A stretch of 64,000 nucleotides of DNA from Salinicola endophyticus. GTDB lineage: Bacteria; Pseudomonadota; Gammaproteobacteria; Pseudomonadales; Halomonadaceae. The stretch covers positions 558,001 through 622,000 of the forward strand of contig NZ_CP159578.1 in the NCBI RefSeq assembly GCF_040536835.1, written 5' to 3'. How positions within the stretch are numbered: the stretch's first letter is position 1; each line of letters starts with the position of its first letter. Below, piece after piece: positions 8,666 through 30,950 of the stretch. The notes under the pieces were generated by a model. The model ran no database searches. It was not told the origin of the DNA and saw only the letters and a list, made by a program, of their open reading frames with translations. The position numbers and the translations under genes are program-made.

Positions 8666-8679
8666 GAGAAGGAAGTGCC

Positions 8680-15792: not shown

Positions 15793-15819
15793 TAGGCTCG
15801 AGACGACGACGGAGGTGGC

Positions 15820-16584: not shown

Positions 16585-17586
16585 TCACCCCCCGCGCAGT
16601 TCGCAGCTGAGCTGGGTGAGGTAGCCGTTGTCGTCGAGGCTTTCGGTGGTCTGGGTGACCAGCCAGGCGCGTTCGTCGATGCCGGCCTTGAAGCCGCGCA
16701 GGGTGAGCGGGGTCTCGGGGCCGAGGTCGGCGCGGCCGCGGGCCAGGGTGAGGTCGAGGCTGGCCTGGCCGCGCTGCAGGCGGCGCCATTCGGCTTCGGC
16801 GGCGTGGCGGGCGTCGGCGGCGCTGGCGTAGGTGTCACGCAGGGTCTTGGGCTTGGTGTCGTCGCCGACCTGGACCGCCTGACGCTCGGCGCCGGCGGTG
16901 TCGTTCCAGTGCGCGATCACCCCGGTGTGGTCGTCGCGGTCGCTCTGGGCGAAGCGGTGGCGGTCGCCGTCGCGGCGGGTGAGCACGACGCCGGGCAGGG
17001 CCAGGCCGCTGGCGCTGAGGCCTTCCCCGGCGCGGGTGAAGAGCAGGTGGCCGGCCTTGATCGTGGCGATGGCGTCGAAGCGCTGGCCGAGCCGGGTGAG
17101 GAAGTTGAGGTCGGATTCGTCGGTCTGGTCGATGTGTTCGAGGCGGATGCCGGCGAGGGTGTCGCCGACCACCGGGGTGAGGCCGTGGCGCGCGGCGAGG
17201 GTCTCGATCAGCTGGGCCAGGGTGAGGTCGTGCCAGGATTGCGAGCGCTTGCCGGGAAGCTGCTGGCGCAGGTTGGCGGCGCGGGCGCGCAGCTGGAGGC
17301 GGTCCGGGGCGCCGCTGTGTTCGACTTCGTCGACGATGAAGGTGCCGCGGCTGGCCAGGCCGCTGTCGTGCCAGCCGAGGGCGAGTTCGAGGGTGGCGCC
17401 ATGCGGCGGCAGCGCCAGGCGGCCGTCGTGGTCGGCGAGGGTGAGGGTGAGCTGATCCGCTTCGCCGCCGCGCTGGCGGGTCAGGCGCAGGGTGATCAGC
17501 CGGCCATTGACCCGCGGGGTGATGTCTTCGCCACCCAGGCTGAGGCGGTAGTCGGGGCGCGCGGCGCCGCTAACCGTGGCGCTCAT
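16585..17586 (-). CDS. D: Baseplate hub / late control protein D (gpD)
   Basis: 333 residues from the ATG at 17586, overlapping the U stop by an ATGA. It resembles P2 gpD and T4 gp27-like hub proteins: a beta-rich N-terminus (DYRLSLGGEDITPRVNGRL), a region with QLIETLAARHGLTPVV and DESDLNFLTRLGQRFDAIATIKAGHLLF, and a C-terminal segment ending in a DNGYLTQLSCELR strand. The hub sits between tube and spike in contractile tails. It is the last gene of the tail operon, as in P2. Confidence 0.9.
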   Translation of the reverse strand: MSATVSGAARPDYRLSLGGEDITPRVNGRLITLRLTRQRGGEADQLTLTLADHDGRLALPPHGATLELALGWHDSGLASRGTFIVDEVEHSGAPDRLQLRARAANLRQQLPGKRSQSWHDLTLAQLIETLAARHGLTPVVGDTLAGIRLEHIDQTDESDLNFLTRLGQRFDAIATIKAGHLLFTRAGEGLSASGLALPGVVLTRRDGDRHRFAQSDRDDHTGVIAHWNDTAGAERQAVQVGDDTKPKTLRDTYASAADARHAAEAEWRRLQRGQASLDLTLARGRADLGPETPLTLRGFKAGIDERAWLVTQTTESLDDNGYLTQLSCELRGG

Positions 17587-18026
17587 GCGTAGGCTCCGTT
17601 GAGGCGCGAGAGGCTCTCGGCGGTGAGGCTGCCGAGCAGGTCGAGGCGAGTGTCGTCGACCCGTTCCAGGCTGAGGCTGAAGTCGAGCCTGCCGGCGGCG
17701 CCGTCGCGGTGGAACTGGCTGGCGGTCTCGTCGACCTGGGTGATCACCCACAGCCCGTACTGGCGCCCGGTGCCTTCGATCAGCGGCCAGGCGTCGCCCT
17801 GGCTGGCCATCTGGCGCAGGGCGTCGAGCTCGAGGCGGCCGCCGGTGAACTCGGGCAGCAGGGTGCCGCTGAGGGTCAAGGTGTCGCTGCCCGGGCCGAG
17901 ATATTGATAGGCCGGGCGCGCGCCGACCCGAGATTGGGCGGCGTGGCGCCAGGCACTGGTGCGCTGGAGCTGCTGGTAGGGCACCGAGCGCGTTTCGAAT
18001 ACGAACATACCGAGGGCCATGAGCAT
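17583..18026 (-). CDS. U: Tail protein U (tail terminator-type)
   Basis: 147 residues from the ATG at 18026, which has an AAAGGAG site. P2 gpU features are visible: MLMALGMFVFETRSVPYQQL at the start, SRVGARPAYQYLGPG, and LTLSGTLLPEF then YGLWVITQVDE. Known: gpU caps or completes P2-like tails and is needed for tail assembly. It lies between T and D as in P2 and overlaps D. Confidence 0.9.
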   Translation of the reverse strand: MLMALGMFVFETRSVPYQQLQRTSAWRHAAQSRVGARPAYQYLGPGSDTLTLSGTLLPEFTGGRLELDALRQMASQGDAWPLIEGTGRQYGLWVITQVDETASQFHRDGAAGRLDFSLSLERVDDTRLDLLGSLTAESLSRLNGAYA

Positions 18027-18055
18027 GGTGCTCTCCTTTAATCCGGTGGGGCCGC

Positions 18056-20458
18056 TTAATCCCGATCCCACATCGACGAACGTTGATACGCGGCCCGCTC
18101 TCGCTGCGCCTGCTCGAGGGCGCGCTGGACTTCCTGGGCGACCTGGCGCGCCAGGGCGTTTTCGTCCATGCCGGGGGCGGCGTGGATATGGATATCGCCG
18201 ATCTGGACGCGGTTGTCGCTGACCGCGGGCGGGGCGCTGGCGGCCAGCGGGGCGCGGGTATCCAGGGTGATCGGAGTCACGCCGGGTAGGGCGAATTCGG
18301 CGGCGAACGGCGGCTGCGCGCTGGCCGGCACGGCGGCAGCGGCCAGGGTGAGCCCGGCACCGGCGCGGACGATATCGCGGGCGATTGCGACCATACGCTG
18401 GATGGGCTCGTCGCGCTGGCGCTCGATCCCCAGCGTCAGGCCGTCCACGGTATACCCGCCGAGCTTGGCGAACTCGCGGGAGGGCGACTGGATACCCAGG
18501 ATGTCGCTGAAGCTCGTAAGGGCGCTCTGGGCCAGGCTGCTGGCGCCTTCGACCACATAGTTCTTGCCCGCTACCAGCCGATCGCCGACGGCGCGGGCGC
18601 CTTCGCTCGCTTTCTCCTTGAGCGATTTGAGGCCATCACCGGCGTCGCTGGCCAGCGACGTGACGCGATCGGCGGCCTTGCCCGCCATCTCTTGGCCGCT
18701 GCCCCAGAGGTTGCCGGGCAGCGACTTGAGATAGCCGATGGCGGCGTCCCACTTCTCCTTGAGCTGACCCATCAGGTCCCAGTCGGTGACCAGTTTGACG
18801 ACCGCGTCGATGGCGCGGCCGGGGGCCGTCTCGAACCAGTTCCAGAGTTCGGTGATGCCTTTCCAGGCGCTCTTGAGGCCGTTGACGATGGCGTCCGAGA
18901 GGGTGCTCATGCTGGCCGGCACCTCGATGCCGAGCTTGTCGAGGGTGGCGACGATGCCCTGGTAGATCAGCCCCAGCGGCGACCAGTTGGCGAGCAGCTG
19001 CATGACGCTGCCGATGCCGCCGGCGAAGGCGTCCTTGACCTGCTGCCAGCGCTGGCTGAACCACTGGCTGATCTCGCCCCAGTGGCGGTAGATCTGGTAG
19101 GCGGCGACGCCGAGGGCGGCGACCGCGGCGACGATGGCGAGGATCGTCAGCGTGGCCGGGTTGAACCCGAGCAGCGTGAGCACGCCGCTGAGTGCGGTGA
19201 GCGGGGCGAGCACGGCGCCGATGCCGCTGGCGAGCAGGCCCACGGTGGCGAGGATGCCGCCGAGCACGCCGAGGAACTGGGCCAGCAGGGTGGTCAGTTC
19301 GGGGTTGTCGTCGATCCAGCCGGCGATGCCGCGGGTGATCTCGGCGATGCCCTTGATCAGATCGCGCAGGGCGCCGTCGTTGGCCGCGGCGAAGGCGATG
19401 CTGGTCTCTTCCCAGGCCGCCTGCAGGGCGTCGAGGTCGCCGCTCAGGTCGTCCACCTCGCGGCGCGCGGCGCGCAGGTTCGTGCCGCTGAGATCGGGCA
19501 CGGCGGCGGCCGGAGCGGCGTTGGCCGTCGGGTTGGTGATGGCTGCTGAGTTGACGATGGCTGCCGGGGCCGGGCGCGGCTCGCTCGTGGCGGGGAGCCC
19601 GGCGGCACGTGCCGGCGTGCTGGCCTGACGGGCGGCGCTGAGCCGCTCGGCGGTGAGGGCGTCGGCGAAGCGGGCCATGGCGCCGTCGGCGGCGAGGTCG
19701 ACCCCGGCGTTGCGGGCCAGCGCGCTGGTGCGGGAGACGCTCGCGACCAGCTCGTCACCGTTGGCCTGGGCGAGCAGTACCATGTCGCCGAGGGAGGCCT
19801 GGATCGCCGCCGGGCTGACCTGGCGCTGGAGCAGGGCGGCCTGGGCCGCGGCGATCTGGGTGGCGCCGAAGCCGGATTGGGTGCCGAGCTCGCGGGCCTG
19901 CTGAGCCAGTGCCTGGGCGCGCGGGTCGTCGCGGGTGAAGCCGCCGGCGCGGCGGACGTGGCGCTGCTCGCGCTGGAACGCCAGGGCGGGGCCGAGCAGG
20001 GTCTTGGCGCCCTGGATCAGACTGCCGAACCCTAGCCCGCCGCTGGGCAGCTCGACGGGCTGCGGTCGCGGGCGGGCCCGTGCCGCGGTTGTCGTAGTTG
20101 TCGTCGTAGCCGTCGTCGCCTCGAGAGACGGCGCGGATCTTGCCGTGGGCGCCGGCAGCGGTAGCGCGTGTCTGGCCTGGGCGACCCGGGCCGCCGGCGG
20201 CGGCAGTGCCGGGGCGGCGGCGGGGGCCGGCAGCAGACGCTGCTGGCGCACCATCGTCTGGCGCAGCTGATCGAGGGCGTCGCGCAGGCGGGCGCTATCC
20301 CGCCAGGTGCGGCCAGCGACGGCGGTAGCGTCCGACGGCACGCCGGCGGGTGCCGCCGGACGGACAACACGCGGCGATTCGCGACGCAGGCGCGTCAGCG
20401 GGGCGGTGAGCTTAGCGACGCTGGCGAGCAGCGCCGGGAGGGGGAGGTTGCGCGCCAT
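18056..20458 (-). CDS. T: Tail tape measure protein (gpT)
   Basis: 800 residues, the largest gene of the cluster. The N-terminal third is Ala/Gln-rich and helical with a Thr-rich hinge (TTATTTTTTAARARP). The middle carries hydrophobic segments suited to membrane passage (LLAQFLGVLGGILATVGLLASGIGAVLAPL). The C-terminus has a gpT-like SPSREFAKLGGYTVDGLTLGIE motif. Known: tape-measure length sets tail length and the protein is ejected during contraction. The start at 20458 overlaps the end of the E' frame (20412), supporting coupled translation. Confidence 0.9.
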   Translation of the reverse strand: MARNLPLPALLASVAKLTAPLTRLRRESPRVVRPAAPAGVPSDATAVAGRTWRDSARLRDALDQLRQTMVRQQRLLPAPAAAPALPPPAARVAQARHALPLPAPTARSAPSLEATTATTTTTTTAARARPRPQPVELPSGGLGFGSLIQGAKTLLGPALAFQREQRHVRRAGGFTRDDPRAQALAQQARELGTQSGFGATQIAAAQAALLQRQVSPAAIQASLGDMVLLAQANGDELVASVSRTSALARNAGVDLAADGAMARFADALTAERLSAARQASTPARAAGLPATSEPRPAPAAIVNSAAITNPTANAAPAAAVPDLSGTNLRAARREVDDLSGDLDALQAAWEETSIAFAAANDGALRDLIKGIAEITRGIAGWIDDNPELTTLLAQFLGVLGGILATVGLLASGIGAVLAPLTALSGVLTLLGFNPATLTILAIVAAVAALGVAAYQIYRHWGEISQWFSQRWQQVKDAFAGGIGSVMQLLANWSPLGLIYQGIVATLDKLGIEVPASMSTLSDAIVNGLKSAWKGITELWNWFETAPGRAIDAVVKLVTDWDLMGQLKEKWDAAIGYLKSLPGNLWGSGQEMAGKAADRVTSLASDAGDGLKSLKEKASEGARAVGDRLVAGKNYVVEGASSLAQSALTSFSDILGIQSPSREFAKLGGYTVDGLTLGIERQRDEPIQRMVAIARDIVRAGAGLTLAAAAVPASAQPPFAAEFALPGVTPITLDTRAPLAASAPPAVSDNRVQIGDIHIHAAPGMDENALARQVAQEVQRALEQAQRERAAYQRSSMWDRD

Positions 20459-20666
20459 TGGATTCCTCTGCAGATGAGCGTTGGCGGGCGCGCTCGCGCC
20501 ACTCCATCAGTTCGCGCAGGCTGAAGTCCGCGCAGTCCGTGGGGGTCCAGTGGAAGACGATGGCCAGGTCGGCCATCGCATCTTCCACCTGGGCCGGCAG
20601 CGCGATCTCGGCCGCGCCGCGGGGCGTCAGGCGGTCTCGCCCCGCGCCCGCTTCGAGAGCAAAAAA
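20412..20666 (-). CDS. E': Tail assembly chaperone extension E' (minus-one frameshift product)
   Basis: This frame continues from E after a minus-one slip at 20660-20666 and ends at 20412. The slip gives ...GFFALEAGAGRD and leads into a GpE domain with MADLAIVFHWTPTDC and LRELMEWRERARQR, the hallmark of the P2 GpE family. A stand-alone ATG at 20576 without a good site could also give a 54-residue product. Known: in P2 the E and E+E' ratio chaperones tape-measure assembly. Confidence 0.8.
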   Translation of the reverse strand, partial: FFALEAGAGRDRLTPRGAAEIALPAQVEDAMADLAIVFHWTPTDCADFSLRELMEWRERARQRSSAEESNGAQPPPPGAARQRR

Positions 20667-20986
20667 CCGGCGATGTCGCTGCCGCACTGGACCAGGTCGG
20701 CGGGGTCCATCTGGCGCGCTTCGTGCTCGGTCAGGCTGGGTTGGGAGAGCCGCGGGATCAGCTTGATCAGGGCGTCGGTCTGCATCTGCAGCACGTCGGC
20801 CAGGTTGACCCCGCGCAGCTCGCCGGCGCTCGGCTTGCGCAGCACGATCTCGTCGATACGCTGCTCGCCGCGCACGATCGGCGTGTCGAGGGCGATGGTG
20901 GCGCGGGTGCCGTCGGCGACGGTCTGGCCAGCGTCGATATCAGCGGTCTTTTCAGCGGCGGTAGTCGCGTTCTGGGCTTGGCTCAT
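20627..20986 (-). CDS. E: Tail assembly protein E
   Basis: 119 residues, matching the phage tail assembly chaperone family encoded between tube and tape measure. After an Ala/Thr-rich N-terminus come TIALDTPIVRGEQRIDEIVLRKP, then GELRGVNLADVLQM and a helical C-terminus (DPADLVQCGSDIAGFLLSK). The last codons contain the slippery heptamer that allows extension into E'. Confidence 0.85.
   Translation of the reverse strand: MSQAQNATTAAEKTADIDAGQTVADGTRATIALDTPIVRGEQRIDEIVLRKPSAGELRGVNLADVLQMQTDALIKLIPRLSQPSLTEHEARQMDPADLVQCGSDIAGFLLSKRARGETA
20660..20666 (-). other. Programmed minus-one frameshift site (T TTT TTG)
   Basis: On the minus strand the zero-frame codons read GGT TTT TTG, giving the heptamer T-TTT-TTG, the same slippery sequence used by P2 between E and E'. 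A slip of one base joins the E frame to the GpE-domain frame with no stop in between. The position near the end of E matches the P2 arrangement. Confidence 0.8.
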
Positions 20987-21069
20987 GGGTGTCTCTCGGT
21001 GGTGATCGTGGGGTGAGGGGCGCGTCGGGCGCCGTCAGCGGCGGGAGGCCACCGCTGACGGGGCGCGGC

Positions 21070-21582
21070 TTAGATACCCAGCGCCTGGCGGCGGCGCGCC
21101 AGACGGTCGTCGCCGTTGACCTTGAACACGTAGTTGGGCAGGTCGATCTCGATCTTGGTCACGCCACCGATCACCAGCTTGTAGTAGCTCAGGGTGCTGG
21201 TGATCTTGTGCTCGGTGTTCTCGCCGTCCTGGGCGTCGCCGAAATCGATCTCGGTGTGGCGGCCGCGCATCACCACCTCGACCGCGACCACCTCGTCGGT
21301 GTCGTCACGCTCGTAGCTGCCGGTCATGCGCAGCAGGTCGGCGTCGAGGCGCGAGGCGCCGAAGTTGTCGAAGATCGACTCGACCAGTCCGCCCACGGTC
21401 CACTGGCAGGTCATCAGGCCGTCCATGCCCATGTCGATGCCGACGCTGCCGTCCATGCCGCCGCCGCGCCACTCCTCGATCTTGCGCGTGAGGGTGGGCA
21501 GGGTGACCGACTGGATCTGGCCCTGGTAGCTGTCGCCGTTGCCGAACAGGTTCAGCGCTTTGAGTTTCTTGGGAAGTGCCAT
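21070..21582 (-). CDS. FII: Major tail tube protein (FII)
   Basis: 170 residues. It begins MALPKKLKALNLFGNGDSYQ and carries VTLPTLTRKIEEWRGGGMDGSVGIDMGM, the signature of P2 FII tube proteins. The C-terminus (KLVIGGVTKIEIDLPNYVFKVNG) is also typical. Known: hexameric rings of FII stack to form the inner tube driven into target cells. It follows the sheath gene by 40 bp. Confidence 0.95.
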   Translation of the reverse strand: MALPKKLKALNLFGNGDSYQGQIQSVTLPTLTRKIEEWRGGGMDGSVGIDMGMDGLMTCQWTVGGLVESIFDNFGASRLDADLLRMTGSYERDDTDEVVAVEVVMRGRHTEIDFGDAQDGENTEHKITSTLSYYKLVIGGVTKIEIDLPNYVFKVNGDDRLARRRQALGI

Positions 21583-21622
21583 CGATCAATGCTCCTAAAG
21601 GGTCTCGGGGCCGAACCGGCGC

Positions 21623-22807
21623 TCAGGCGCTCGCGGCGACACGGGTGGCGAAGTCGGCGAGATAGGTGTCGGTGATGCGCTGCTGGAAGCCGAGGTCCTC
21701 GAGCGGCGGCACCGGGGTGTAGTCGTAGTCGATGCGCAGCTTGCCGGCCTTGAGGCTCTCGCGGGTATTGAGCGACTCGTTGAGCCAGGCGCGGCCGTCG
21801 ATGATCAGGCCCAGCGCCTTGAGCTCGGCGAACTTGGCGTTGATGCCTTCGATGATGTCGCGGGCCAGCGAGGCGTGCAGCGGCTTGTCCACCGCCCACA
21901 GGTGGGCCTCGGCGATGGTGTCGGCGAGGATCTGCGCGGTGCGGGTGTAGTTCTCGAACGGGAACAGCGACTGCGGCCCGGCGCAGGTGCGCGAGCCCCA
22001 GAAGCGGAAGCCGCCCTGGTTGACCAGAGTGGTGACGTCGGCGGCGTTGAGCAGGCCGGCGTCGGTGGCGGCGGATTGCAGGTCCCAGAAGACGTCGCGG
22101 TCGATCCCGGTGACGCCGTTGACGACCACGTTGGAGAGCGTCTTGTGCCAGCCGATCTCCTGGTCGAGCTTGGCGCGCAGGCCCAGCGCCACGGCCACCG
22201 GGCTGCGCGGGGCGGTGGCGGCGGTGTCGGCATCGAAGGCTTCGAACTGCGGCCAGATCAGCATCAGCTCGCGGGCGCCGAACTGGTCGCGGTAGGCGGT
22301 GGCGTCGGCCAGCGTCTCGCAGCCGTGGGCGTAGGCGTAGCCGAAGGCGCGCAGCGACTGCAGCAGCGGCACCAGGGCGGTGGTCACTTCCGGGGTATCG
22401 AGTTCCGGGCAGCCGATCAGGCGCGGGGTCACGCCGAGCTTCTGCTTGGCGCTCATCAGCGCCTGCAGGCCGGTGCGCTGGCCGCTGTCGGTGGTGGTAC
22501 CGATCACGTTGGCGCTGGTCTCGGTGGCGTCCGCACCCTCGGCGACGCGCACCACGACCACGATCGGGCGCGCCTGCTCGGCGATGGCGCTGAGCGCGCC
22601 TTTCAGGGTGCCGCTGCTGCCGGCCTGGCCGATGGCGGTGGTGATATCGGTGACCAGCGCCGGGCGGTCGAGGGGGAAGGCGGTCGCGTCGGCGTCGGCG
22701 GCGGTGGCGACGATGCCGATCACCGCGGTGGAGATCGTACGCAGGGTGCGGGTGCCGTCGTTGACTTCCGAGACGCGCACGCCGTGATGGTATTGGTCGA
22801 GTGCCAT
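21623..22807 (-). CDS. FI: Contractile tail sheath protein (FI)
   Basis: 394 residues. The start (DQYHHGVRVSEVNDGTRTL) and the motifs ITTAIGQAGSSGTLKGAL, GFRFWGSRTC and FENYTRTAQILADTIAEAHLWAVDKPL match P2 FI-type sheaths. Known: the sheath contracts and drives the tube through the envelope. Its length equals the P2 protein (396 residues). It is followed by FII; upstream lies the inserted moron gene on the opposite strand. Confidence 0.95.
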   Translation of the reverse strand: MALDQYHHGVRVSEVNDGTRTLRTISTAVIGIVATAADADATAFPLDRPALVTDITTAIGQAGSSGTLKGALSAIAEQARPIVVVVRVAEGADATETSANVIGTTTDSGQRTGLQALMSAKQKLGVTPRLIGCPELDTPEVTTALVPLLQSLRAFGYAYAHGCETLADATAYRDQFGARELMLIWPQFEAFDADTAATAPRSPVAVALGLRAKLDQEIGWHKTLSNVVVNGVTGIDRDVFWDLQSAATDAGLLNAADVTTLVNQGGFRFWGSRTCAGPQSLFPFENYTRTAQILADTIAEAHLWAVDKPLHASLARDIIEGINAKFAELKALGLIIDGRAWLNESLNTRESLKAGKLRIDYDYTPVPPLEDLGFQQRITDTYLADFATRVAASA

Positions 22808-22925
22808 GAGGGGTTCCTGATCAGGGTAACGGGGCTGTCAGGGGCTCATGGTGTGGGGGATGGTAGTCTGGAGCGAGCGGGGGGCGGTGTAGAGTGCACT
22901 CATACAGAGTAGGGGATAATCGCAC

Positions 22926-23441
22926 ATGTGTTGGACGACGGGCATTTCTATACTGGCAATTGTGGTTTCTGGAGTCAGCGCGTTCATGTCGATTCGAACG
23001 AGTCGTTTGTCGGCGAAGCCTGTTTTGAGTGCTTGGTTACAATCTGACTCGCCAAATGAGCACGCTTTTATCGTTTCAAACAAAGGAAATGGCCCAGCAA
23101 TCATTGAGTCATTTGAAGTAGAGTCGCCAGGAATCGAAAAGTCCTTTGAGGAGAGTGGTGCGGGTCTAGTTCATCGATTTCACGAAGTAATGAGGCAGGC
23201 TTATTCGGCACACTACTATGAGCTTCTTAGCAGTACGTATCTGCCGAGGGGGCAAGCTGTAGGGGCAGGAGAGGAAAAGAAGATAGTTGTCTTTTCTACC
23301 CAGAGCATAAATCCCTTTGATAGTCGGAAAAAAGAGTCATTTCTGAGGAGTTGGAAAGTTAAAATTATCTATAAAGATATGTTTGGAAACAGGAAGGGGG
23401 CTGTTTTTTATCAAGGTCGGATAACTGTGGTCCGCGCGTAG
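22926..23441 (+). CDS. Membrane-anchored moron protein inserted in the tailocin
   Basis: 171 residues, rightward inside an otherwise leftward cluster and clearly more AT-rich. One N-terminal membrane segment is visible (ISILAIVVSGVSAFMSI, about 7-23). A beta-rich soluble domain follows, with HAFIVSNKGNGPAIIESFEV and WKVKIIYKDMFGNRKGAVFYQG. No family was recognised. It lies between G and FI, where P2 has the Z/fun moron that blocks phage T5. Inference: self-expressed cargo for immunity or phage exclusion, not part of the particle. Confidence 0.7.
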   Translation: MCWTTGISILAIVVSGVSAFMSIRTSRLSAKPVLSAWLQSDSPNEHAFIVSNKGNGPAIIESFEVESPGIEKSFEESGAGLVHRFHEVMRQAYSAHYYELLSSTYLPRGQAVGAGEEKKIVVFSTQSINPFDSRKKESFLRSWKVKIIYKDMFGNRKGAVFYQGRITVVRA

Positions 23442-23544: not shown

Positions 23545-24198
23545 TCACGTGGCCGTATCGGCCTCGGTGTTATCGGCGGGCTCCCATCTCACCGCCTGAA
23601 TCGCCTCGCGGTCGCCGGCGGCCTCGGCGGCGGTGATGGCGTCCTTGAGCTGCCATGACTTGGCCAGCAACCCCTGCTTGAACGCCTTGGCGGCGTCGGT
23701 CAGTGCGATCATCTGCTCGGGCGTGAGCGAGTAGACGGTGTTCGATTGCGCCCGCAGCGCCATGTTGGCCTCGGTGTCGCCGGCGGCACGACGGTCGCGG
23801 GCCTCGATCGCCAACCCGAGCAGATTGGCTTCGTCTTCGTCCGGCCGGGTCTGGATCACATCCTCGCTACCGTCCGGCAGGGTGTAGGGCATGCCGGCGC
23901 GCAGAGCGTTGGCCAGGGCCGATTCGATCGCCGCACGCTGGCGGTTGGCGAGGCGGAATATCGGGGCTATGGGTCTCTCTACCCAAGCTGGCCGGCCGCT
24001 GGACGTAGAGCCAAGTATCTTGTCCTTGGGTTTGCCATGCGCTTGGGCGGCATAAGCCTCGAACTCTTCGTCGGTGACGGCGATGGCATCGTCTGGCCAG
24101 CTTCCGGATTTTACGTAAGACTCTTGAAACTCACCGGCGAAGAATTCGCATCGAGATGGGCTGAAATAATATGAAGCCCGCGCAGTTATGTTTGTCAT
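23545..24198 (-). CDS. G: Tail fibre assembly chaperone (gpG-like)
   Basis: 217 residues. The N-terminus has the pattern of fibre assembly proteins (ASYYFSPSRCEFF ... WPDDAIAVTDEEFEAYAAQ). The C-terminal half (GMPYTLPDGSEDVIQTR and NTVYSLTPEQMIALTDAAKAFKQ) is DUF4376-like. Known: such chaperones fold the matching fibre tip and usually co-vary with it. It follows the fibre gene by nine bases. Confidence 0.85.
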   Translation of the reverse strand: MTNITARASYYFSPSRCEFFAGEFQESYVKSGSWPDDAIAVTDEEFEAYAAQAHGKPKDKILGSTSSGRPAWVERPIAPIFRLANRQRAAIESALANALRAGMPYTLPDGSEDVIQTRPDEDEANLLGLAIEARDRRAAGDTEANMALRAQSNTVYSLTPEQMIALTDAAKAFKQGLLAKSWQLKDAITAAEAAGDREAIQAVRWEPADNTEADTAT

Positions 24199-24207
24199 GA
24201 TGGATCC

Positions 24208-26412
24208 TTAGTAGCCGATGGCCATGTAATATGCCTTGCCTGCACTGGGGACTTCGGCATGGATTCGGAAGCCCGAGGCGCTTTGTTCATCAACGGAAAT
24301 GTCGCCGGTGTTCAATACTCCCAAATCTGTCAGAACGACTGAGGCGCAGCGGTTGGGGAAAGTGATAGGGAAGGTTTCGTAGGAGTCCACATCATGTGTG
24401 CCCCATTGAATCAATAAGCCATTGGGCAGTCGTGCATAGCCGTTGGTCTGGATGCTTGCGGCGGCGTCACCGTCGTGCCAGATGCGTTGTTGCTTGTAGC
24501 GCAGATCCCGAGGACTGATCAGTAGCATCTCTTCTGCATCGGCATTGGTGACCGGATTCTCGCCGCCGCTGGCGCTGTAGCTGTAGGTCAAATGATCAGA
24601 ATCGAACCACAGCGCGCCACTGCCAGCATCGGTGGTGCGGTCCTCGAAGACCACGCCCGGTGCGAAAGATTTGAGCGTGATGCCATAGGCCTCTGACGAA
24701 TTGTTCAGCGCGTGGCCTGAGCCCCATAGTTCCAGCTTGCCAACTATCTGCTGCGACGCTTGGCCACGACGCCAGATGAAATCGCTCGCGTGCTTGCCGT
24801 CGACCTTATCGGCACTACCTGAGATATCGATCGCCGCTTTCCCATCCAGCAGCGAGGCATCAATGCCACCATCAGCGCGATCCAGTCGCCCGCTGGCGTT
24901 GACTCGGAAGATGTAGCCGTTGCCATCGTGCATATCGAGATTGCCGCCGCTAGAGACGGATACTCTAGCGCCGCCGCTGCCGCGAATCCCTGCCTTATCG
25001 TAATCCTTCTCTTTCAGCAATCGGTCGCCACCGGCCTCCACCCAGCCAGGGCCGAGCAGCACGCGAGGAGTGTGGGCGGAAGGGTCCTGGTCGGCGAAGA
25101 AGGCCAGCGTATTGGCGCTGTCGTCGTAGACCAGACCGTCCCAGTTAGTTGAACTCGTCGAGCCCATGGGGACTCTACTGTTGCCGGTATCCGAGCGCAG
25201 GAATTGACCGGCTTGAAGGCCATCGACTGTATCGGCATCGAGCCCGGAACCCGCGCCATCGTTGCCCTCATGCCAGAGCTTTCGATAGCCATTGCCATGC
25301 TTCACCTGGAGGCCATCATCGGCCAGGCTGACGCCGCCATATCCGCTGAAAATGAGCGTTCTGGCTTCGCTGGTATCATCGCGATTGTAGAACTGAAACC
25401 AGGCCCGGCTGCTGTCGGAGACCATGCGGATTTGCGTCTGGCCGGCAACCGGTGCTCCAAGCAGAATGCCGGTATTCACCGTCAGCGTGCCGTTCATGAC
25501 ATCGTCGGTATTACGCAGAAGCTGATTGCCGTGGATGCCATCCACCGTATCCGCATCCAGCCCCTTGCCGGGGCCTTCGTCGCGCCGGGCCGCGCTACCC
25601 AGCGCGCTCAGGGCGTTCTGCACCGTGGTCGGGTTGCCCAGCTTGGCCAGGTTCTCGACGGAGATCCGCGTCGCGGCGTGGGCGCCGCCTTCGCTGCGGT
25701 GGGCATCCAGCGCCGACTTGTTGGCCGCCGGCGTCACCGCGCGGGCGTTGTCGCTGCCCTCTTTGGTCTCGGCGTAGGTGGCCAGCTCGACCATGCCCTG
25801 GGCGTTGGTGGTCGCTGCCGGGTGGTTGCGGCTGGCGGCGTGGTCGTTGAGCTGCGTCAGCGTGGCGTAGGCGGCGAGCACCTTGTCGATGAACGCCTTC
25901 AGCGTGCGCGGGACGACCCCGCGGCGGGCGTCGCTGCCGGCGTCGACCTCGGCCTGGGTGGCGAGTTCGAGCACCCCGGCGACCTCGGTGGTGGCCGGCG
26001 GGTTGAGAAAGGCGGCGTCACCGAAGGTGATCGAGGAGACGTCGAGGGACTCGACCACCAGGTCGGTGGCCAGCAGCAGGGTCGAGGGGGCGGCCTTCTC
26101 GATGATCCACTCGCTCTGCGAATAGACCGCGAAGAGCACGCCGGCGTCGGTGAACAGGCCGATCTCGCCGACGGCGTAGGTGTCGCTGCTCTCGTCCTGC
26201 ACGCTGACGTGCAGGGTGTCGGCGGCGACCGCCTGGCCGGCCATGCTGGCCAGACGCTTGATCGGCTCGCGCAGGGCGGTCTGGTCGGCGCTGGGGGTGT
26301 AGCGGCCGCGGCCGAAGCCGATCTCGCTGAGGGTCAGGGCCGTGGTGCCGTCGTGGTCGGCGTCGATCAGCGCGGCGCGGCCGGCATCGGTGATGGTGAA
26401 GACGATGGCCAT
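24208..26412 (-). CDS. H: Tail fibre / receptor-binding protein (gpH-like)
   Basis: 734 residues from the ATG at 26412. The N-terminal ~160 residues match the phage tail-collar fibre domain that attaches to the baseplate (VFTITDAGRAALIDAD, ALTLSEIGFGRGRY). Repeated shaft motifs of the type GLDADTVDG occur several times (about residues 280-560), with variants LDGKAAI and KVDGKHASDF. The C-terminal ~75 residues resemble a gp53-like tip domain (LPNGLLIQWGT, FPITFPNRCASVVL). The distal half is less GC-rich than the proximal half. Inference: the tip sets the killing spectrum and was probably exchanged together with G. Confidence 0.9.
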   Translation of the reverse strand: MAIVFTITDAGRAALIDADHDGTTALTLSEIGFGRGRYTPSADQTALREPIKRLASMAGQAVAADTLHVSVQDESSDTYAVGEIGLFTDAGVLFAVYSQSEWIIEKAAPSTLLLATDLVVESLDVSSITFGDAAFLNPPATTEVAGVLELATQAEVDAGSDARRGVVPRTLKAFIDKVLAAYATLTQLNDHAASRNHPAATTNAQGMVELATYAETKEGSDNARAVTPAANKSALDAHRSEGGAHAATRISVENLAKLGNPTTVQNALSALGSAARRDEGPGKGLDADTVDGIHGNQLLRNTDDVMNGTLTVNTGILLGAPVAGQTQIRMVSDSSRAWFQFYNRDDTSEARTLIFSGYGGVSLADDGLQVKHGNGYRKLWHEGNDGAGSGLDADTVDGLQAGQFLRSDTGNSRVPMGSTSSTNWDGLVYDDSANTLAFFADQDPSAHTPRVLLGPGWVEAGGDRLLKEKDYDKAGIRGSGGARVSVSSGGNLDMHDGNGYIFRVNASGRLDRADGGIDASLLDGKAAIDISGSADKVDGKHASDFIWRRGQASQQIVGKLELWGSGHALNNSSEAYGITLKSFAPGVVFEDRTTDAGSGALWFDSDHLTYSYSASGGENPVTNADAEEMLLISPRDLRYKQQRIWHDGDAAASIQTNGYARLPNGLLIQWGTHDVDSYETFPITFPNRCASVVLTDLGVLNTGDISVDEQSASGFRIHAEVPSAGKAYYMAIGY

Positions 26413-26422
26413 CGGGGGTCCT

Positions 26423-26977
26423 CTAGTGGGCGGTGGCCGCCAGGCGGCGGTAGACGTAGGCTCGGGCGCCGCCGGCGACGCCGACACCGCCCGTGGCGCT
26501 GAGCCCGGCGGTGAAGGTGAAGTGCGAGCGGACCGGCTTGGTGCGGGTGATCTCGTCGACGATGTCCTGCTGGAAGGCGGCGCTGTTGGGCACCTCCGCG
26601 CCCAGGGTCAGCACCACGTCGAAGGTGTGCGGCGCGCCCGGCTCGGCCTTCTGCCACCACTCGCGTAGCGCCAGGCTGGAGCCGAACGAGCGGACCACGT
26701 CGCGCACGCTCTTGGCGGTGCCTTTACGACGCTGGATCTCGATCGCGTTGCGCAGGCGCTGGCGCTTGATGCGCTCCGGCCAGTAGGGCTGCCAGGCATC
26801 CAGTGAGAGCGCCCAGGCGAGCCACGGCAGCAGCTCGGCGGGGCAGGTGTCCGGGTTCCACAGCGCGCGCAGCGGCACCGGCAGCTCGCTGGCACCGGCG
26901 GCGGCGGTCTCCAGGGCGTGCTCCAGGGGGCTGGCGTTGGGCGGCAGCAGGCTGGCGCGGGGGCTCGGCTCACTCAT
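26423..26977 (-). CDS. I: Baseplate wedge / tail protein I (gpI)
   Basis: 184 residues. The family signature is visible: SLLPPNASPLEHALETA near the start, then CPAELLPWLAWALSLDAW and WPERIKRQRLRNAIEIQRRKGT, the region conserved in P2 gpI. Known: gpI links the fibre to the gpJ wedge. Its start overlaps the end of J and its stop lies 10 bp before the fibre start. Confidence 0.9.
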   Translation of the reverse strand: MSEPSPRASLLPPNASPLEHALETAAAGASELPVPLRALWNPDTCPAELLPWLAWALSLDAWQPYWPERIKRQRLRNAIEIQRRKGTAKSVRDVVRSFGSSLALREWWQKAEPGAPHTFDVVLTLGAEVPNSAAFQQDIVDEITRTKPVRSHFTFTAGLSATGGVGVAGGARAYVYRRLAATAH

Positions 26978-27869
26978 CGAGACCTCCGTCGCGCAGCGCG
27001 ATCTCGGTGCAGTGGGTCGCCTGGGTGCGGTCGATCACCAGGCTCGCCGCGGGGTCGGTGAGCTCGACCCGCTGCACGCCGGGCTGGTGCAGCGCGGCGT
27101 AGAGCCCGGAGAGGGTGACATCGAGGCCCAGACGGTGCTGCTGCTCGGCATAGACGGCGGCGGCGGCGCGCGCTTCGCGCATCACCACTTCGCGGTCGGG
27201 GCCGGCGTAGAAGTAGAGGGTGGCGGCGATACGGTAGTCGACGATCTCGGCGCTGCGCACGCTGACGTGATCGGTGAGCGGGCGCACATCCTCGGCAGAC
27301 AGCGTGGCGTCGACGCGCGCGAGCAGCTCGGCCGGGGCGCTGCCGTCGCCGTCGCGGGCGAGCACCGTCACCACCACCTCGCCCGGCGCCGGGCTGGTGG
27401 CGCTGGCATCCAGCACCTGGCCGTCGGCGGAGAGCGCGTGGAAGACGTAGGCGCCCTCGGGGCCGGCGGTGGAGAATCCCTCCAGCGAGAGCTGAATGCG
27501 CCGGCGCAAGTCGGCGTCCGTCTCCAGCGTGGCCGGCACCGGCGGCACCGCTGCGGGGTCGCCGGCGTCCAGGGTCTGGCGGGCGACGCCGAAGAGCGCG
27601 CCGAGGTGGTCGAGATCGGCGCCGCGGGCGTAGGCGAGCATCACCCCCTGGGCGGCTTCGTTGATCCGCTGGCGCAGCAGCAGCTCGCGGTAGGCGGCGG
27701 CCTGCAGGATCTTGTAGGCGGGGTCGGACTCGACGCTGACATCGAACGCCGGAGCCCGCGCGCGCAGGTCGGCGAGCAGGGCGGCGAAAATCGTCTCGAA
27801 GTCGAGCGGCTCGACGATATCCGGCGCGGGCAGCCGCGAGAGATCGACGGCGGTGAAGCCTCCGGCCAT
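26970..27869 (-). CDS. J: Baseplate wedge protein J (gpJ)
   Basis: 299 residues. Family features of P2 gpJ (T4 gp6-like wedge) are present: DFETIFAALLADLRARAPAF near the N-terminus, then RQRINEAAQGVMLAYARGADLDHLGALFG and GPEGAYVFHALSADGQVLDA. Known: gpJ forms the wedge ring that triggers sheath contraction. It lies between W and I, with a short overlap to I. Confidence 0.95.
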   Translation of the reverse strand: MAGGFTAVDLSRLPAPDIVEPLDFETIFAALLADLRARAPAFDVSVESDPAYKILQAAAYRELLLRQRINEAAQGVMLAYARGADLDHLGALFGVARQTLDAGDPAAVPPVPATLETDADLRRRIQLSLEGFSTAGPEGAYVFHALSADGQVLDASATSPAPGEVVVTVLARDGDGSAPAELLARVDATLSAEDVRPLTDHVSVRSAEIVDYRIAATLYFYAGPDREVVMREARAAAAVYAEQQHRLGLDVTLSGLYAALHQPGVQRVELTDPAASLVIDRTQATHCTEIALRDGGLDE

Positions 27870-27872
27870 GGT

Positions 27873-28223
27873 TTAGGTCTCCTGTCCCAGGGGGATATCG
27901 AAGGTGAGGTCGGCGCCGTCGTCGACCCGTTCGGCGTGCACGCTGAGCGTCAGCCGCCCGGGGCGCGTGGTAGAGACGTGGCGCGTGACCTGCTTGACGC
28001 GAATCCGCGGCTCCCAGCGCATCAGTGCCACCACCGTGGCCGAGTAGGCGCGCAGGGCGGTGGCGCCATCCAGCGGCTGGTCGATCAGCTCCGGCAGCAG
28101 CGAGCCGTAGTCGCGGCGCATCACCCGCGAGCCGATGGGCGTGGTGAGAATGTCGGTGACGGACTGGCGAATATGGGCGATGCCCGCCAGCGCCGCGCCG
28201 CTGGTGCGATCCATGCCGGCCAT
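27873..28223 (-). CDS. W: Baseplate wedge protein W (gp25-like)
   Basis: 116 residues of the GPW/gp25 family: HIRQSVTDILTTPIGSRVMRRDYGS, the most conserved segment, then LPELIDQPLDG. The EPR-type motif reads WEPRIRV, as in gp25 homologues. Known: gp25 nucleates sheath assembly on the baseplate. Its start overlaps the V stop by one base (ATGA-type junction). Confidence 0.95.
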   Translation of the reverse strand: MAGMDRTSGAALAGIAHIRQSVTDILTTPIGSRVMRRDYGSLLPELIDQPLDGATALRAYSATVVALMRWEPRIRVKQVTRHVSTTRPGRLTLSVHAERVDDGADLTFDIPLGQET

Positions 28224-28861
28224 CAGTTCACCCCCTCCGTCTGGGCGCCGCCGCGCTGCACGCCGCCGTGGGTGTGGCTGGCGCTGATGTCGCGGCCGTT
28301 GCTGGTCACCGCGCCGGTGAAGTGGGTATCGCCGGCCATGGTCGCGGTCTGGCCGCTGGGCTGGCTGAAGTTGCCGTTCAAGGTGAGATTGCCGTTGATC
28401 ACGGTGTCGGCGTTGAGGGTGGCGCCGCCGGCGGCGGTGGCGGTGAGGGCGGCGGCGGTGGTGACGCTCACCGCGCCCTGGGCGTCGAGGCTGGCCGAGC
28501 CGGGCAGGGTGGCGCTCAGGTGGCTGGCAGCGTGGTCGTAGCGGAGCCGCGCGCCGTCGGGCAGTTCGAGCTGGGTCACGTTGGCATCATGGCTCGGCGC
28601 CGGCACCGCGTCCGAGTTCAGCGCCGGCAGCACCAGGGCGCCGCGCAGCTCGCCGCCGGGGGCCAGCAGCAGCACCTGCTCGCCCAGGGTCGGCGGGTTC
28701 CAGGTTCGGCTGTGGCCGGCGCGGGCGGTCAGCCACGGCAGCCAGTCGGTGAGTAGCGCACCGCTCTGGACGCGCACGCGCACCGCGGCGTGGTCGATCG
28801 CGGCGACACGGCCGACGCGGATCAGATTGTGGAGCAGACGGGCAAGTTCGACGGAGTTCAT
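28223..28861 (-). CDS. V: Baseplate spike protein V
   Basis: 212 residues. The N-terminal OB-like domain is visible (NLIRVGRVAAIDHAAVRVRV, WNPPTLGEQVLLLAPGGEL). A repeat-rich beta-helix (SLDAQGAVSV ... LNADTVINGNLTLNG) leads to the C-terminal SASHTHGGV, the HxH iron-binding apex motif of P2-type spikes. Known: the trimer forms the membrane-piercing needle. Confidence 0.95.
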   Translation of the reverse strand: MNSVELARLLHNLIRVGRVAAIDHAAVRVRVQSGALLTDWLPWLTARAGHSRTWNPPTLGEQVLLLAPGGELRGALVLPALNSDAVPAPSHDANVTQLELPDGARLRYDHAASHLSATLPGSASLDAQGAVSVTTAAALTATAAGGATLNADTVINGNLTLNGNFSQPSGQTATMAGDTHFTGAVTSNGRDISASHTHGGVQRGGAQTEGVN

Positions 28862-28984
28862 GGCGCACCGGTGGCGGGAGACGGCATGCGCTCATGGTCC
28901 GCGGCGCGGGGCGGGCTGGCGAGCCGCGGGCGTTGTCGGCGGGGGTTCGACGTGGGCGCTTTCTATCGCCCCCGACGCCGGGCG
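28862..28984. other. 123-bp gap where phage P2 carries gene S
   Basis: Between R and V, P2-like phages carry S, a head-joining/tail completion gene of about 450 bp. Only 123 GC-rich bases without an ORF remain. I see no recognisable S remnant. The direct GCGGGC-type repeats could be a deletion scar. Confidence 0.5.
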
Positions 28985-29479
28985 TTAGGCCAGCGGGCCA
29001 TCCCACTCGGCCACCAACCGATACCCCTCGTCACCCGCGCTGTCGTCGCGCAGCAGCAGCTGCCAGTGCTCGGCGGGGCAGGTCTCGTGCGCGAAGGCGG
29101 GCTGGCGATGGTCGAGAGTGATCTCGCCGCTGGCGCAGTCGTGGCGCGCCACCACGCGCTCCTCGAGCGGCACCCACAGGCGCAGGTCGGCGGGCGCCTC
29201 GCCGGCGAAGGCCCAGGCAAAGCGCAGGCCCGGTTCCGGCCCCAGCTCGGGCTGATAGCGCGACAGCCACGCCAGCAGCGGCAGCATCACCGCGTCCAGG
29301 GTGTCGTCATAGGCGTGCAGCGTCAGTGCGGCGGTCACCGCATAGCCTTGGGAGAGCGAGGCCCCCGGGGCGAACCGGATGCGCCCCTCGTCCACCTGCG
29401 CCGAGAGCCGGTTCGGCATCTCCTGCAGCGCCGGCACGGTGCGCCGCAGATGTTCAATCAGGGCGTTCAGCAGTTGCAT
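28985..29479 (-). CDS. R: Tail completion protein R
   Basis: 164 residues beginning MQLLNALIEHLRRTVPALQE, the conserved start of P2 gpR. Then come YAVTAALTLHAYDDTLDAVMLPLLAWLSRYQP and a C-terminal strand region (YRLVAEWDGPLA). Known: gpR and gpS act in tail completion; here only R is kept. Its start overlaps the Rz1 reading frame. Confidence 0.85.
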   Translation of the reverse strand: MQLLNALIEHLRRTVPALQEMPNRLSAQVDEGRIRFAPGASLSQGYAVTAALTLHAYDDTLDAVMLPLLAWLSRYQPELGPEPGLRFAWAFAGEAPADLRLWVPLEERVVARHDCASGEITLDHRQPAFAHETCPAEHWQLLLRDDSAGDEGYRLVAEWDGPLA

Positions 29480-29729
29480 GTCGGGTCTCCTCCAGGGTGG
29501 TCACCAGTCCGTTATGTCGAATCGCGCAGGCGTGGTACTGCGCCGCCCAGTCGCGCAGCGTCAGCACCACGCTGGCGCCGCTGCCGTCACTCAACGGCGG
29601 CAGCGTCGTCGGGCAGCGGGTCAGCAGCGTCTGCTGGATCGGGGGCGCGGCCGGCGGCGGCGTCGTTGAGCAGGCGCACAGCGTCAGGCTCAAGGCAGAC
29701 GCGGCGATAAATCGGCTTCTGGATCTCAC
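29454..29729 (-). CDS. o-spanin Rz1-type lipoprotein
   Basis: 91 residues. A lipoprotein signal ends in LCACS, so Cys19 is the likely lipid site. The short Pro-rich mature part (TTPPPAAPPIQQTLL, CPTTLPPLSDGSG) is typical of Rz1 outer-membrane spanins. It starts inside the Rz gene in another frame, the classic embedded or overlapping spanin layout, and its end overlaps R. Confidence 0.8.
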   Translation of the reverse strand: MRSRSRFIAASALSLTLCACSTTPPPAAPPIQQTLLTRCPTTLPPLSDGSGASVVLTLRDWAAQYHACAIRHNGLVTTLEETRHATAERPD

Positions 29730-29955
29730 GAATCACTCCGCGGTCGATGACCCGTTGATGGGTGTCGAGGGTCGCGAGCCGCGCCTCGACCACGCCGGCG
29801 ATGACGGACTCCCGCGCCAGCGCCTGGCTGGCCGCGGCCTGGGCGGCCTCGAGGGCGGTGAGGCGCTGGGCATCCTCGAACCAGCCGCGGCTGAGCCAGC
29901 CTGTGCCTGCGGCGATCGCCAGCACGGCGAGCATGACGAGCGTGCGCGCCGTCAT
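29587..29955 (-). CDS. i-spanin Rz-type protein
   Basis: 122 residues from the ATG at 29955, overlapping the lysozyme stop by an ATGA. One N-terminal membrane anchor (LVMLAVLAIAAGTGWLS) is followed by a periplasmic coiled-coil region rich in Ala, Glu and Gln (LTALEAAQAAASQALARE) and REIQKPIYRRVCLEPDAVRLLND. Known: Rz and Rz1 fuse inner and outer membranes in the last step of lysis. Confidence 0.8.
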   Translation of the reverse strand: MTARTLVMLAVLAIAAGTGWLSRGWFEDAQRLTALEAAQAAASQALARESVIAGVVEARLATLDTHQRVIDRGVIREIQKPIYRRVCLEPDAVRLLNDAAAGRAPDPADAADPLPDDAAAVE

Positions 29956-30452
29956 TCCAGCCCCGCCAGACACAGCTCGCGCTCCGCCGCACGGCGCTCG
30001 ACCAGCCCCGGCAGCTTGCGGCCACCGGCATAGACCCAGCGCGCGAGCTGATCGCACGCGGCGCGCGTGTCGCCGGCGTTCAGCCTGGCCAGCAGGGTCG
30101 AGTCGCGAAACGCCCCCTCGCCGACGTTGAAGATAAAAGAGGCCAGCGCCGCCCGGCGGGTCGGCGGCATTGTGGCGTTGATCGCCGGCGCGACGTGGCG
30201 GTCGATGGCCGCGAATGCCTCGCCCAGGTCGCCGGCCAGCAGCGCCTCGCACTCCTGGGTGGTTCGGGTCTGGTTCAGCGCGACCGTCGGCCCGGTATGG
30301 CCGGTGCAGATCGTCGGGATGCCGACAGGGTCGGGATACGCCTGCAGCTCGGTGCCCTCGTAGTGCTTGACCACATTGATCGAGAGCGACAGCGCCAGGC
30401 CGCAGGCGCCGCCGATACCCGCGCCGCCGAGCCAGCGTTTCCAGTGGTTCAT
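29952..30452 (-). CDS. Endolysin, GH24 lysozyme with SAR-like N-terminus
   Basis: 166 residues from the ATG at 30452. A weakly hydrophobic, Gly/Ala-rich N-terminal segment (GGAGIGGACGLALSLSINVV) resembles a signal-anchor-release sequence. The T4-type catalytic core follows: HYEGTELQAYPDPVGIPTICTGHT holds the catalytic Glu, the Asp and the Thr. Known: R21-type SAR endolysins are exported by Sec and activated when the holin collapses the membrane potential. It lies between holin and spanins as expected. Confidence 0.9.
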   Translation of the reverse strand: MNHWKRWLGGAGIGGACGLALSLSINVVKHYEGTELQAYPDPVGIPTICTGHTGPTVALNQTRTTQECEALLAGDLGEAFAAIDRHVAPAINATMPPTRRAALASFIFNVGEGAFRDSTLLARLNAGDTRAACDQLARWVYAGGRKLPGLVERRAAERELCLAGLE

Positions 30453-30658
30453 GAACGCCTCCGCCGAATGCGCGCCCACCACTCGCGCAGGTTGCCGAGA
30501 TACTTGGGCACGATCAGCCCGATCTGCAGCGCCAGATAGGCCAGGGTCAGCACCGTGACCCAATCCGACGGCGTCATGCCGCCGGCATGCAGCAGCGAGA
30601 CGAGCGCAGGCGGCGTGGTCTTGATTGCCTCGGTGGTGATATTCGACTGATGGGCCAT
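30449..30658 (-). CDS. Holin
   Basis: 69 residues from the ATG at 30658 (MAHQSNITTEAIKTTPPALV). One strong membrane segment is visible (WVTVLTLAYLALQIGLIVPKYL), preceded by a weaker one (PPALVSLLHAGGM), with a basic C-terminal tail (REWWARIRRRRS). Size, tail and position directly before the endolysin fit a pinholin or class II/III holin. It overlaps the lysozyme start by an ATGA. Confidence 0.75.
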   Translation of the reverse strand: MAHQSNITTEAIKTTPPALVSLLHAGGMTPSDWVTVLTLAYLALQIGLIVPKYLGNLREWWARIRRRRS

Positions 30659-30740
30659 GCCGATTCCTGCGTCGACGCGGGCCGGTATGACGCTCACACC
30701 GGCCCGCGACGGGATGAAAGAAGCGCTGATCGGGCCGGGC

Positions 30741-30950
30741 TCAGCGCCACAGCTCGATCACCCGCGGCGTGGGTGACGGCGAGGCGACATCCGGCAGCAC
30801 CACCGGCGTGGCGCTCGGCAGCCGCGGGCCCAGCGCGCACAGCCCGGGATTGTGCGTCAGCACCTGCACCACCAGATCGGTACGCCCGTAATGGCGCTGA
30901 CACAGGCGATCGACGGTATCGCCCTGAAGACTCGACACGGTTCGCGGCAT
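30741..30950 (-). CDS. X: Tail protein X (LysM-like)
   Basis: 69 residues from the ATG at 30950. It is the P2 gpX type with VSSLQGDTVDRLCQRHYGRTDLVVQVL, a LysM-like fold, then VLTHNPGLCALGPRLP. Known: gpX binds the baseplate hub region. It is the first gene of the leftward tail and lysis cluster; the next phage gene expected upstream (L, head completion) is absent. Confidence 0.85.
   Translation of the reverse strand: MPRTVSSLQGDTVDRLCQRHYGRTDLVVQVLTHNPGLCALGPRLPSATPVVLPDVASPSPTPRVIELWR

Follow-up and report, generated by a model that had tools for sequence, protein, structure and literature searches.

A 64-kb window of the single-contig, 4.32-Mb genome of a member of the genus Salinicola (contig NZ_CP159578.1, 558001-622000; positions below are those of the window unless stated otherwise) holds a P2-type contractile tail module with lysis genes and without head genes. 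We interpret this locus, with a probability of about 0.85, as an inherited R-type tailocin of P2-like prophage origin, tRNA-Thr(TGT) having been the integration site. Its gene content, deletions, attachment (att) sites, conservation, selection and fibre mosaicism were established directly. An earlier, sequence-only reading of the window had proposed the make-up of an R-type bacteriocin, possibly in a relative of Halomonas. The host is indeed a Halomonas relative (Salinicola, Halomonadaceae), and comparison among genomes supports the proposed make-up: four genomes of the genus carry the headless module, ratios of non-synonymous to synonymous change (dN/dS) are mostly below 1, and no stop codons were seen in the aligned pieces of the tail genes. 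That reading had overlooked int, xis, gpA, the Ogr/Delta protein, the repressor and the att sites, a second, headed prophage in the same genome, and the recurrence of the module in three relatives, namely S. endophyticus CPA92 (G005), S. tamaricis F01 (G017) and bacterium MFB021 (G015).

Tail and lysis genes without head genes

PHROGs and Pfam profile searches assigned the P2-type genes D, U, T, E', E, FII, FI, G, H, I, J, W, V, R, Rz, lysozyme and X, all reading leftward between 16585 and 31019 (Table 1). The frame is open in every tail and lysis gene, in keeping with the tail, baseplate, fibre and lysis functions first read from the sequence. The interval given at that time is right for the tail module, which is only part of a larger element with early genes at 479-7414. 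A contractile tail set (sheath, tube, baseplate, tape measure and fibre) together with lysis genes is characteristic of R-type tailocins, and the P2 tail order, common to headed Salinicola relatives, with the early genes int, gpA and Ogr/Delta, is that of an element of P2-like origin. Among solved structures, R2-pyocin gave the best match for both sheath and tube (3j9q, 6pyt); phrog_55, the family matched by the tube protein FII, carries the PHROGs label head closure. The overlap of E and E' contains a T-TTT-TTG run (~20660-20666), which we take to be the expected place of the P2 frameshift. The tail had been described as complete, and all P2 tail genes are present except S, which in P2 is a tail-completion gene and not a capsid-side gene.

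A complete P2-like prophage, with L, M, N, O, P, Q and S, is present elsewhere in this genome and not at the window locus. This second prophage, at ~1.466-1.497 Mb (gpA to Q), carries GPL, the small terminase, the P2 capsid, the scaffold, the large terminase, the portal and S. With its proteins as tblastn queries (E≤1e-8), L, M, N, O, P, Q and S had no match in the window or in the 20 kb to its left; the same queries do recover these genes in nine headed loci. The loss of Q, O, N, M, L and S had been recognised before, and P is missing as well. Profile searches for capsid, portal and terminase families found none at the locus, as had been expected; genome-wide, the P2 capsid (PF05125) and portal (PF04860) profiles have one match each, both in the second prophage only. 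The terminase profile PF03354 has no match anywhere in the genome, and since the second prophage's terminase itself matches other Pfam models, this null result tells little about P2-type heads. In the two junctions left by the losses, the V-R scar and the stretch between X and the att site, tblastn with S, L, M and Q at E≤10 turned up nothing credible as a remnant of these four genes (best E 0.28). The V-R scar contains ~30-bp repeats, with one unit in the window and more in MFB021, CPA92 and F01, and in CPA92 and F01 it also holds an insert with 18-bp inverted ends. A 19-nt P2 cos motif, allowing up to 4 mismatches, had no match in any of the nine headed loci scanned; in the headless stretches it gave 4-mismatch matches only (one each in CPA92 and F01, four in the window strain).

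Amino-acid identity between the element and the second prophage is high for FII (91%), V (88%), FI (88%) and J (87%) and lower for D (62%), X (57%), R (52%), CI (39%) and T (30-38% over parts).

Extent of the element and its attachment sites

The module ends on the right at a 17-bp att core (attR), an exact repeat of the attL core that lies left of the window at contig position 544778 (G000:C1:544778). Because this repeat bounds both the early genes and the tail module, the two belong to one element. The repeat derives from the tRNA-Thr(TGT) anticodon region; its core occurs exactly three times in the genome, the reversed control not at all. Paired att copies also bound the element in F01 (a 17-bp run) and CPA92 (a 15-bp exact run on the right), the left copy of CPA92 lying inside a whole tRNA-Thr gene. 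In the window strain the 3' part of tRNA-Thr alone remains at attL, and at attR the 3' half of the tRNA is unrecognisable by eye, which suggests that the insertion is old. Beyond attR lie the host genes ectD and FAH, in agreement with the chromosomal genes noted on the right before; all 18 genomes of the genus carry the ectD-FAH pair.

The early genes retain the motifs associated with their families. Integrase boxes CRLRG, HDLK and GHRS..Y (by eye) are kept in CPA92 and F01 except for one residue, the gpA motif YVAKY is kept in CPA92, F01 and the second prophage, and the catalytic repressor motifs GDSM and LKRV, the latter with its lysine, are kept in CPA92 and F01. Homologues of xis were found in CPA92 and, over residues 60-132, in F01. 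The late-promoter consensus TGT-N12-ACA has three matches between attL and attR, two of them intragenic, and is uninformative on regulation.

Two further observations concern the left side. The third copy of the att core lies at 465870, ~79 kb to the left of attL (G000:C1:465870-544794), within a tRNA-Thr gene that is intact, which suggests another element in tandem at the same tRNA-Thr. Between attL and int, ~12 kb are present in this genome only (L007:8430-20000 to window ~480), with no match to CPA92 or F01 beyond a ~100-bp piece in CPA92; this stretch encodes a 1700-aa protein with weak EF-hand and LmuB matches, and among the five proteins of the stretch searched with PADLOC only this one had a match.

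A common origin of the headless loci

Across 18 genomes of the genus we found 13 strong gpJ loci. L-Q are present in nine of them (the second prophage, G001, G002, G003, G004, G011, two loci in G014, and G016), and the remaining four, in four of the 18 genomes, are headless: the window, CPA92, MFB021 and F01. In a tree built from I, W and V of all 13 loci, the four headless loci are monophyletic (support 1.000), and the second, headed prophage branches as their sister (1.000). Comparison with other Halomonadaceae, proposed earlier, thereby showed the headless module in these three relatives. In CPA92 and F01 the headless element lies between tRNA-Thr(TGT) and ectD, the same site as in the window. 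The shared site could be checked in these two of the three relatives; the MFB021 contig ends inside T, leaving the early genes outside it, a transposase-like stretch (by eye) lies right of X, and ectD is on another contig. DNA identity of ectD-FAH to the window is 90-94% in the three headless relatives versus 74-83% in the other 14 genomes, and the occurrence of the element at one site in relatives points to inheritance rather than transfer. The V-R and X-att junctions are homologous across the four headless loci (in MFB021 up to the transposase-like stretch only), and the deletions of L-Q and S are therefore ancestral to all four. Headed P2-like prophages also lie within ~15 kb of ectD in other Salinicola species, namely in G011, G014 and G016 (by match positions; L032, L034, L036).

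No P2-type capsid and no PF04860 portal was found in CPA92 or F01, so that a P2-type helper seems not to be needed for upkeep of the headless module; this absence is strong evidence but not absolute, because the CPA92 assembly is in ~20 contigs and that of F01 is rated 93% complete. MFB021 has no P2-type capsid match and two PF04860 portals on other contigs.

The headless state is rare. A survey of 201 sampled genomes of the family for gpJ (E≤1e-40) gave 62 loci (63 rows, one F01 locus occupying two), of which four, all in the single clade, are headless and 58 have head genes. Outside the genus, 45 of 49 gpJ loci have P2-type head genes, 44 of these with full L-Q, and the contig of the other ends after N. 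L113, L124, L127 and L140, from other genera and without P2 heads, were considered as further tailocins and rejected, each having a lambda-type terminase and portal. Among 42 named gpJ loci, the three headless ones are again MFB021, CPA92 and F01, and seven Salinicola loci are headed; 16 of the other 32 have P2 head genes, and 16 have no match to L, M, N or O (three of them with weak P or Q matches at 23-25% identity) and may represent other head types or tailocins. Of 189 relatives in IMG/VR, the top 80 were retained and the ten best of these examined: three at 97-98% are headless and seven at 79-82% headed. The headless three are MFB021 and CPA92 again and a new contig, L156, in which an att copy lies ~370 bp past X and leaves no room for heads.

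Selection on the genes of the element

We computed dN/dS from our own Nei-Gojobori counts, comparing the window with CPA92, F01 and MFB021. Relative to CPA92 and F01, constraint is strongest on FII (0.02), J (0.06-0.07) and FI (0.07-0.09), followed by D, U, T, E, I, W, V and R (0.18-0.35) and lysozyme (0.35-0.46); the host genes ectD and FAH and the gene after them lie at 0.02-0.10. Among the early genes, int (0.27-0.28), gpA (0.29-0.37) and CI (0.28 and 0.08) are more constrained than xis (0.36-0.52), the DksA-like gene (0.43-0.53) and Ogr/Delta (0.47-0.54), and gpA gives 0.34 against the headed second prophage. Against the close relative MFB021, with few differing sites, values run from 0 (FII) to 0.83 (T, 64 codons), Rz set apart. 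Overall, dN/dS is below 1 for all genes, small or overlapping cases near 0.5-0.9 excepted. Silent divergence from F01 is similar for tail and lysis genes (0.10-0.28; H 0.49) and host genes (0.13-0.29). From CPA92 it is mostly 0.10-0.21 in the element (lysozyme 0.45, H 0.46), lower than in host genes (0.21-0.39), and some exchange between lineages is therefore possible.

Nineteen genes showed no stop codon in the aligned pieces of CPA92, MFB021 and F01, as far as each was covered. In 300 simulation runs of free drift at the silent rate relative to CPA92, int acquired a mean of 5.0 stops (minimum 0) and gpA 10.5 (minimum 2), and the absence of stops is telling for gpA and not decisive for int. 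The sequence-only reading had named inactivating mutations in the tail genes as evidence that would count against it; the tail-gene frames are open in the window, and the aligned pieces of the relatives are free of stops.

Variable fibre tip

The tail fibre H has a conserved base and a tip that is mosaic among the headless relatives. Compared with MFB021, residues 1-429 are 94% and residues 408-557 are 87% identical, the remainder being unmatched at that level; with CPA92, residues 16-437 are 74% and 381-548 are 58% identical; with F01, residues 16-254 are 98% identical, followed by one short later piece only. The assembly protein G matches CPA92, MFB021 and F01 from ~residue 77 onward only. 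As judged from these alignments, a variable H tip and G N-terminus form the pattern expected if target range diversifies. The gap between FI and G is occupied in the three relatives by a common ORF beginning with or containing MWRSMMMAGVL, instead of the 171-aa gene of the window.

Proposed mechanism and alternative explanations

In the proposed history, a P2-like prophage would have inserted in tRNA-Thr(TGT), and the common ancestor of the four Salinicola genomes would have lost L-Q (the right end up to attR) and S by deletions, leaving the contractile tail, fibres and lysis cassette. We infer induction, particle formation, killing and target range from the gene content and by analogy with the P2-like element BceTMilo of Burkholderia cenocepacia. 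DNA damage would activate RecA and lead to inactivation of the S24 repressor, and the Ogr/Delta-type protein would switch on the late operons. Contractile tails would then assemble, with a length of perhaps ~120 nm (a guess from the 800-aa tape measure at 0.15 nm per residue); the holin, lysozyme and spanin would lyse the producer, and the released particles would kill, by contraction, bacteria recognised via the variable fibre tip.

Several observations weigh against the interpretation as an inherited tailocin. Heads and S might in principle come from the second prophage; in this respect the concern about head genes elsewhere, raised by the sequence-only reading, is borne out in part, by a related but distinct headed prophage here, and CPA92 and F01 gave no match for the P2-type capsid or a PF04860 portal. 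Most tail genes are less constrained than their host neighbours, and constraint is weak on E' (0.52-0.55), H (0.45-0.46) and X when compared with F01 (0.58; 0.30 with CPA92). The 64-codon piece of T just mentioned reaches 0.83 against MFB021, and Rz, at 0.74-0.93 over three relatives, shows no clear constraint, perhaps from an overlapping Rz1 frame. In F01, J, FI, gpA and CI each fall into two frames, but so do two host genes, FAH and its neighbour (L027-L029), and the splits in the phage genes are therefore probably assembly errors. Finally, int, xis and gpA are kept in CPA92 and F01 as well (in MFB021 the region lies outside the contig), and would be superfluous for a fully domesticated tailocin. 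We entertain tentatively that the tailocin still excises or replicates, these genes being kept for excision or rolling-circle amplification on induction, which would raise gene dose with packaging lost. The dN/dS of gpA and int between headless relatives (0.27-0.37), their conserved motifs and the att sites at both ends are in favour of this, and the weaker constraint on xis speaks against it.

That the locus is a decaying, non-functional prophage remnant whose head end was lost by chance we regard as improbable. The loss of L-Q and S, the unrecognisable tRNA half at attR, the stretch of ~12 kb, peculiar to this genome, that separates attL from int, and the dN/dS of xis and Ogr/Delta (0.36-0.54) would all fit decay, but most tail genes are under purifying selection, no stops occur in the aligned pieces across species, including gpA, and CPA92 and F01 share identical losses yet keep all other tail genes. 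It is very unlikely that the locus is a satellite-like element with its own tail that borrows heads and S from the co-resident prophage. Retention of int, xis, gpA and att, and the closeness of FII, FI and J to their headed counterparts, are compatible with such borrowing; CPA92 and F01, without P2-type capsid and PF04860 portal matches, and MFB021, without a P2-type capsid match, nevertheless all keep the module (of other head families, only PF03354 was searched, in the window genome), the shared site in relatives favours inheritance over transfer, and R and X differ strongly from those of the headed prophage. We give almost no credence to a cell-associated contractile injection system instead of a released bacteriocin: a contractile tail with variable fibres would suit one, but the lysis cassette and CI/Ogr regulation are phage-type, and no match to an AAA+ ATPase, typical of extracellular contractile injection system (eCIS) or type VI secretion system (T6SS) loci, was found among the tail-module ORFs scanned.

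Features and accessory genes

Table 1. Features of the element within the window.
Feature	Position	Strand	Evidence
Tyrosine integrase (int)	479..1756	-	phrog_1, Phage_int_M
Excisionase (xis)	1821..2219	-	phrog_1266
DksA/TraR-like zinc finger protein	2209..2424	-	phrog_54, PF01258
gpA-type replication nickase	2740..5190	-	phrog_91, PF05840
Double Ogr/Delta zinc finger, probable late-gene activator	5657..6211	-	PF04606, two stretches
CI-like repressor with S24 peptidase domain	6605..7414	+	PF00717, HTH_3
Accessory (cargo) stretch	7442..16542	.	profile searches, PADLOC
gpD tail protein	16585..17751	-	phrog_52, 8.2e-136
gpU tail protein	17583..18071	-	phrog_76
gpT tape measure, 800 aa	18056..20458	-	phrog_28
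gpE', frameshift partner of E	20412..20687	-	phrog_6416 and phrog_1756 tail proteins
gpE tail protein	20627..20986	-	phrog_103
gpFII tail tube	21070..21582	-	R2-pyocin tube 3j9q, 6pyt; phrog_55
gpFI tail sheath	21623..22807	-	phrog_23; R2-pyocin sheath 3j9q, E 1.4e-53
Low-GC extra gene between FI and G, 171 aa	22926..23441	+	phrog_9607 only, E 1.6e-4
gpG tail-fibre assembly protein, variable N-terminus	23545..24198	-	phrog_188
gpH tail fibre, 759 aa	24208..26487	-	phrog_8443 and others; Gp53-like_C
gpI baseplate	26423..26977	-	phrog_48
gpJ baseplate wedge	26970..27869	-	phrog_4226, phrog_6
gpW baseplate wedge	27873..28223	-	phrog_43
gpV baseplate assembly/spike	28223..28861	-	phrog_9992
Scar at gpS position of headed relatives	28862..28984	.	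second prophage: S (PF05069) between V and R
gpR tail completion protein	28985..29479	-	PF06891
Rz-like spanin	29650..29946	-	phrog_1152, residues 103-201 of ORF 29587-30252
Lysozyme/endolysin	29952..30563	-	PF00959, phrog_7
Holin-like ORF, 82 aa	30449..30697	-	88% identity, residues 62-128, to second prophage's holin-like protein
gpX tail protein	30741..30950	-	PF05489, phrog_46; longer GTG ORF to 31019
attR, 17-bp core CTTGTAATCAGTAGGTC	31296..31312	+	exact repeat of attL core

The Pfam holin match of the second prophage's holin-like protein is below threshold, and the holin call in the window is by similarity to that protein alone. The 171-aa gene between FI and G had no Pfam or PADLOC match and no tblastn match in the three headless relatives.

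The accessory stretch encodes a DUF7424 protein, an AAA_15 ATPase with a 193-aa partner, a 212-aa protein, a transglutaminase-like protein, an endonuclease I with an Excalibur domain and a 240-aa protein. The 212-aa protein, the transglutaminase-like protein and the endonuclease are found in both CPA92 and F01, and the 240-aa protein in CPA92, not F01; the transglutaminase-like and endonuclease genes lie near gpD, at 13034-15705. The AAA_15/OLD-like ATPase (479 aa) and the 193-aa protein form a low-GC pair on the + strand (9351-11368), possibly an anti-phage defence pair. The ATPase matches 73 PADLOC models (best HEC-02A and PDC-M47A; also AriA and GajA) and no PADLOC system could be named for it, its partner had no Pfam or PADLOC match, and neither gene had a tblastn match in the CPA92 or F01 stretches.

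Relation to known systems and significance

R2-pyocin of Pseudomonas aeruginosa, whose sheath and tube resemble those described here, is a headless contractile tail with lysis genes. Its regulation is by PrtN/PrtR, whereas the Salinicola element has CI and Ogr genes and keeps its early phage region and att sites.

The closest likeness in organisation is to BceTMilo, described in the main text of PMC5411513 as P2-like, with a break between X and L and loss of S, and with an integrase, a probable excisionase, a CI-like repressor and Ogr, all features common to the Salinicola element; RecA-dependent induction is given there as data not shown. The Salinicola element differs in genus, in carrying gpA (the word replication does not occur in that main text) and in its att sites (the same text does not mention tRNA or attachment sites). 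Because its nearest tail relatives are headed Salinicola prophages with S, its losses are probably independent of those in Burkholderia. Rhizoviticin of Allorhizobium vitis is, in excerpts of PMC10811719, likewise headless, adjoins a tRNA and keeps replication-related early genes, but its tail is F-type, its integrase is truncated and no attL/R repeats were detected. MEDPRO2 of Marinomonas mediterranea appears in excerpts of PMC10870725 as another gammaproteobacterial R-type locus found at one site in three strains, but it spans ~12-13 kb and no replication genes were detected. Searches of an open-access collection of papers yielded no tailocin work on Salinicola and no phage tail-like bacteriocin for Halomonadaceae, and papers combining tailocin and Halomonas concern other subjects, judging by titles and the beginnings of abstracts.

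The element is most likely a weapon of an established type found in a new host. It is unusual in keeping intact integration and replication genes, and the kept gpA is its least ordinary feature. It would extend P2-derived R-type tailocins to Salinicola and offers a clean case of the passage from prophage to weapon, with the deletions placed on one clade and losses like those of BceTMilo at the X/L break and S. A fixed tail with diversifying fibre tips can be compared with a headed relative in the same genome, and the retention of its replication and integration genes poses a question that can be tested.

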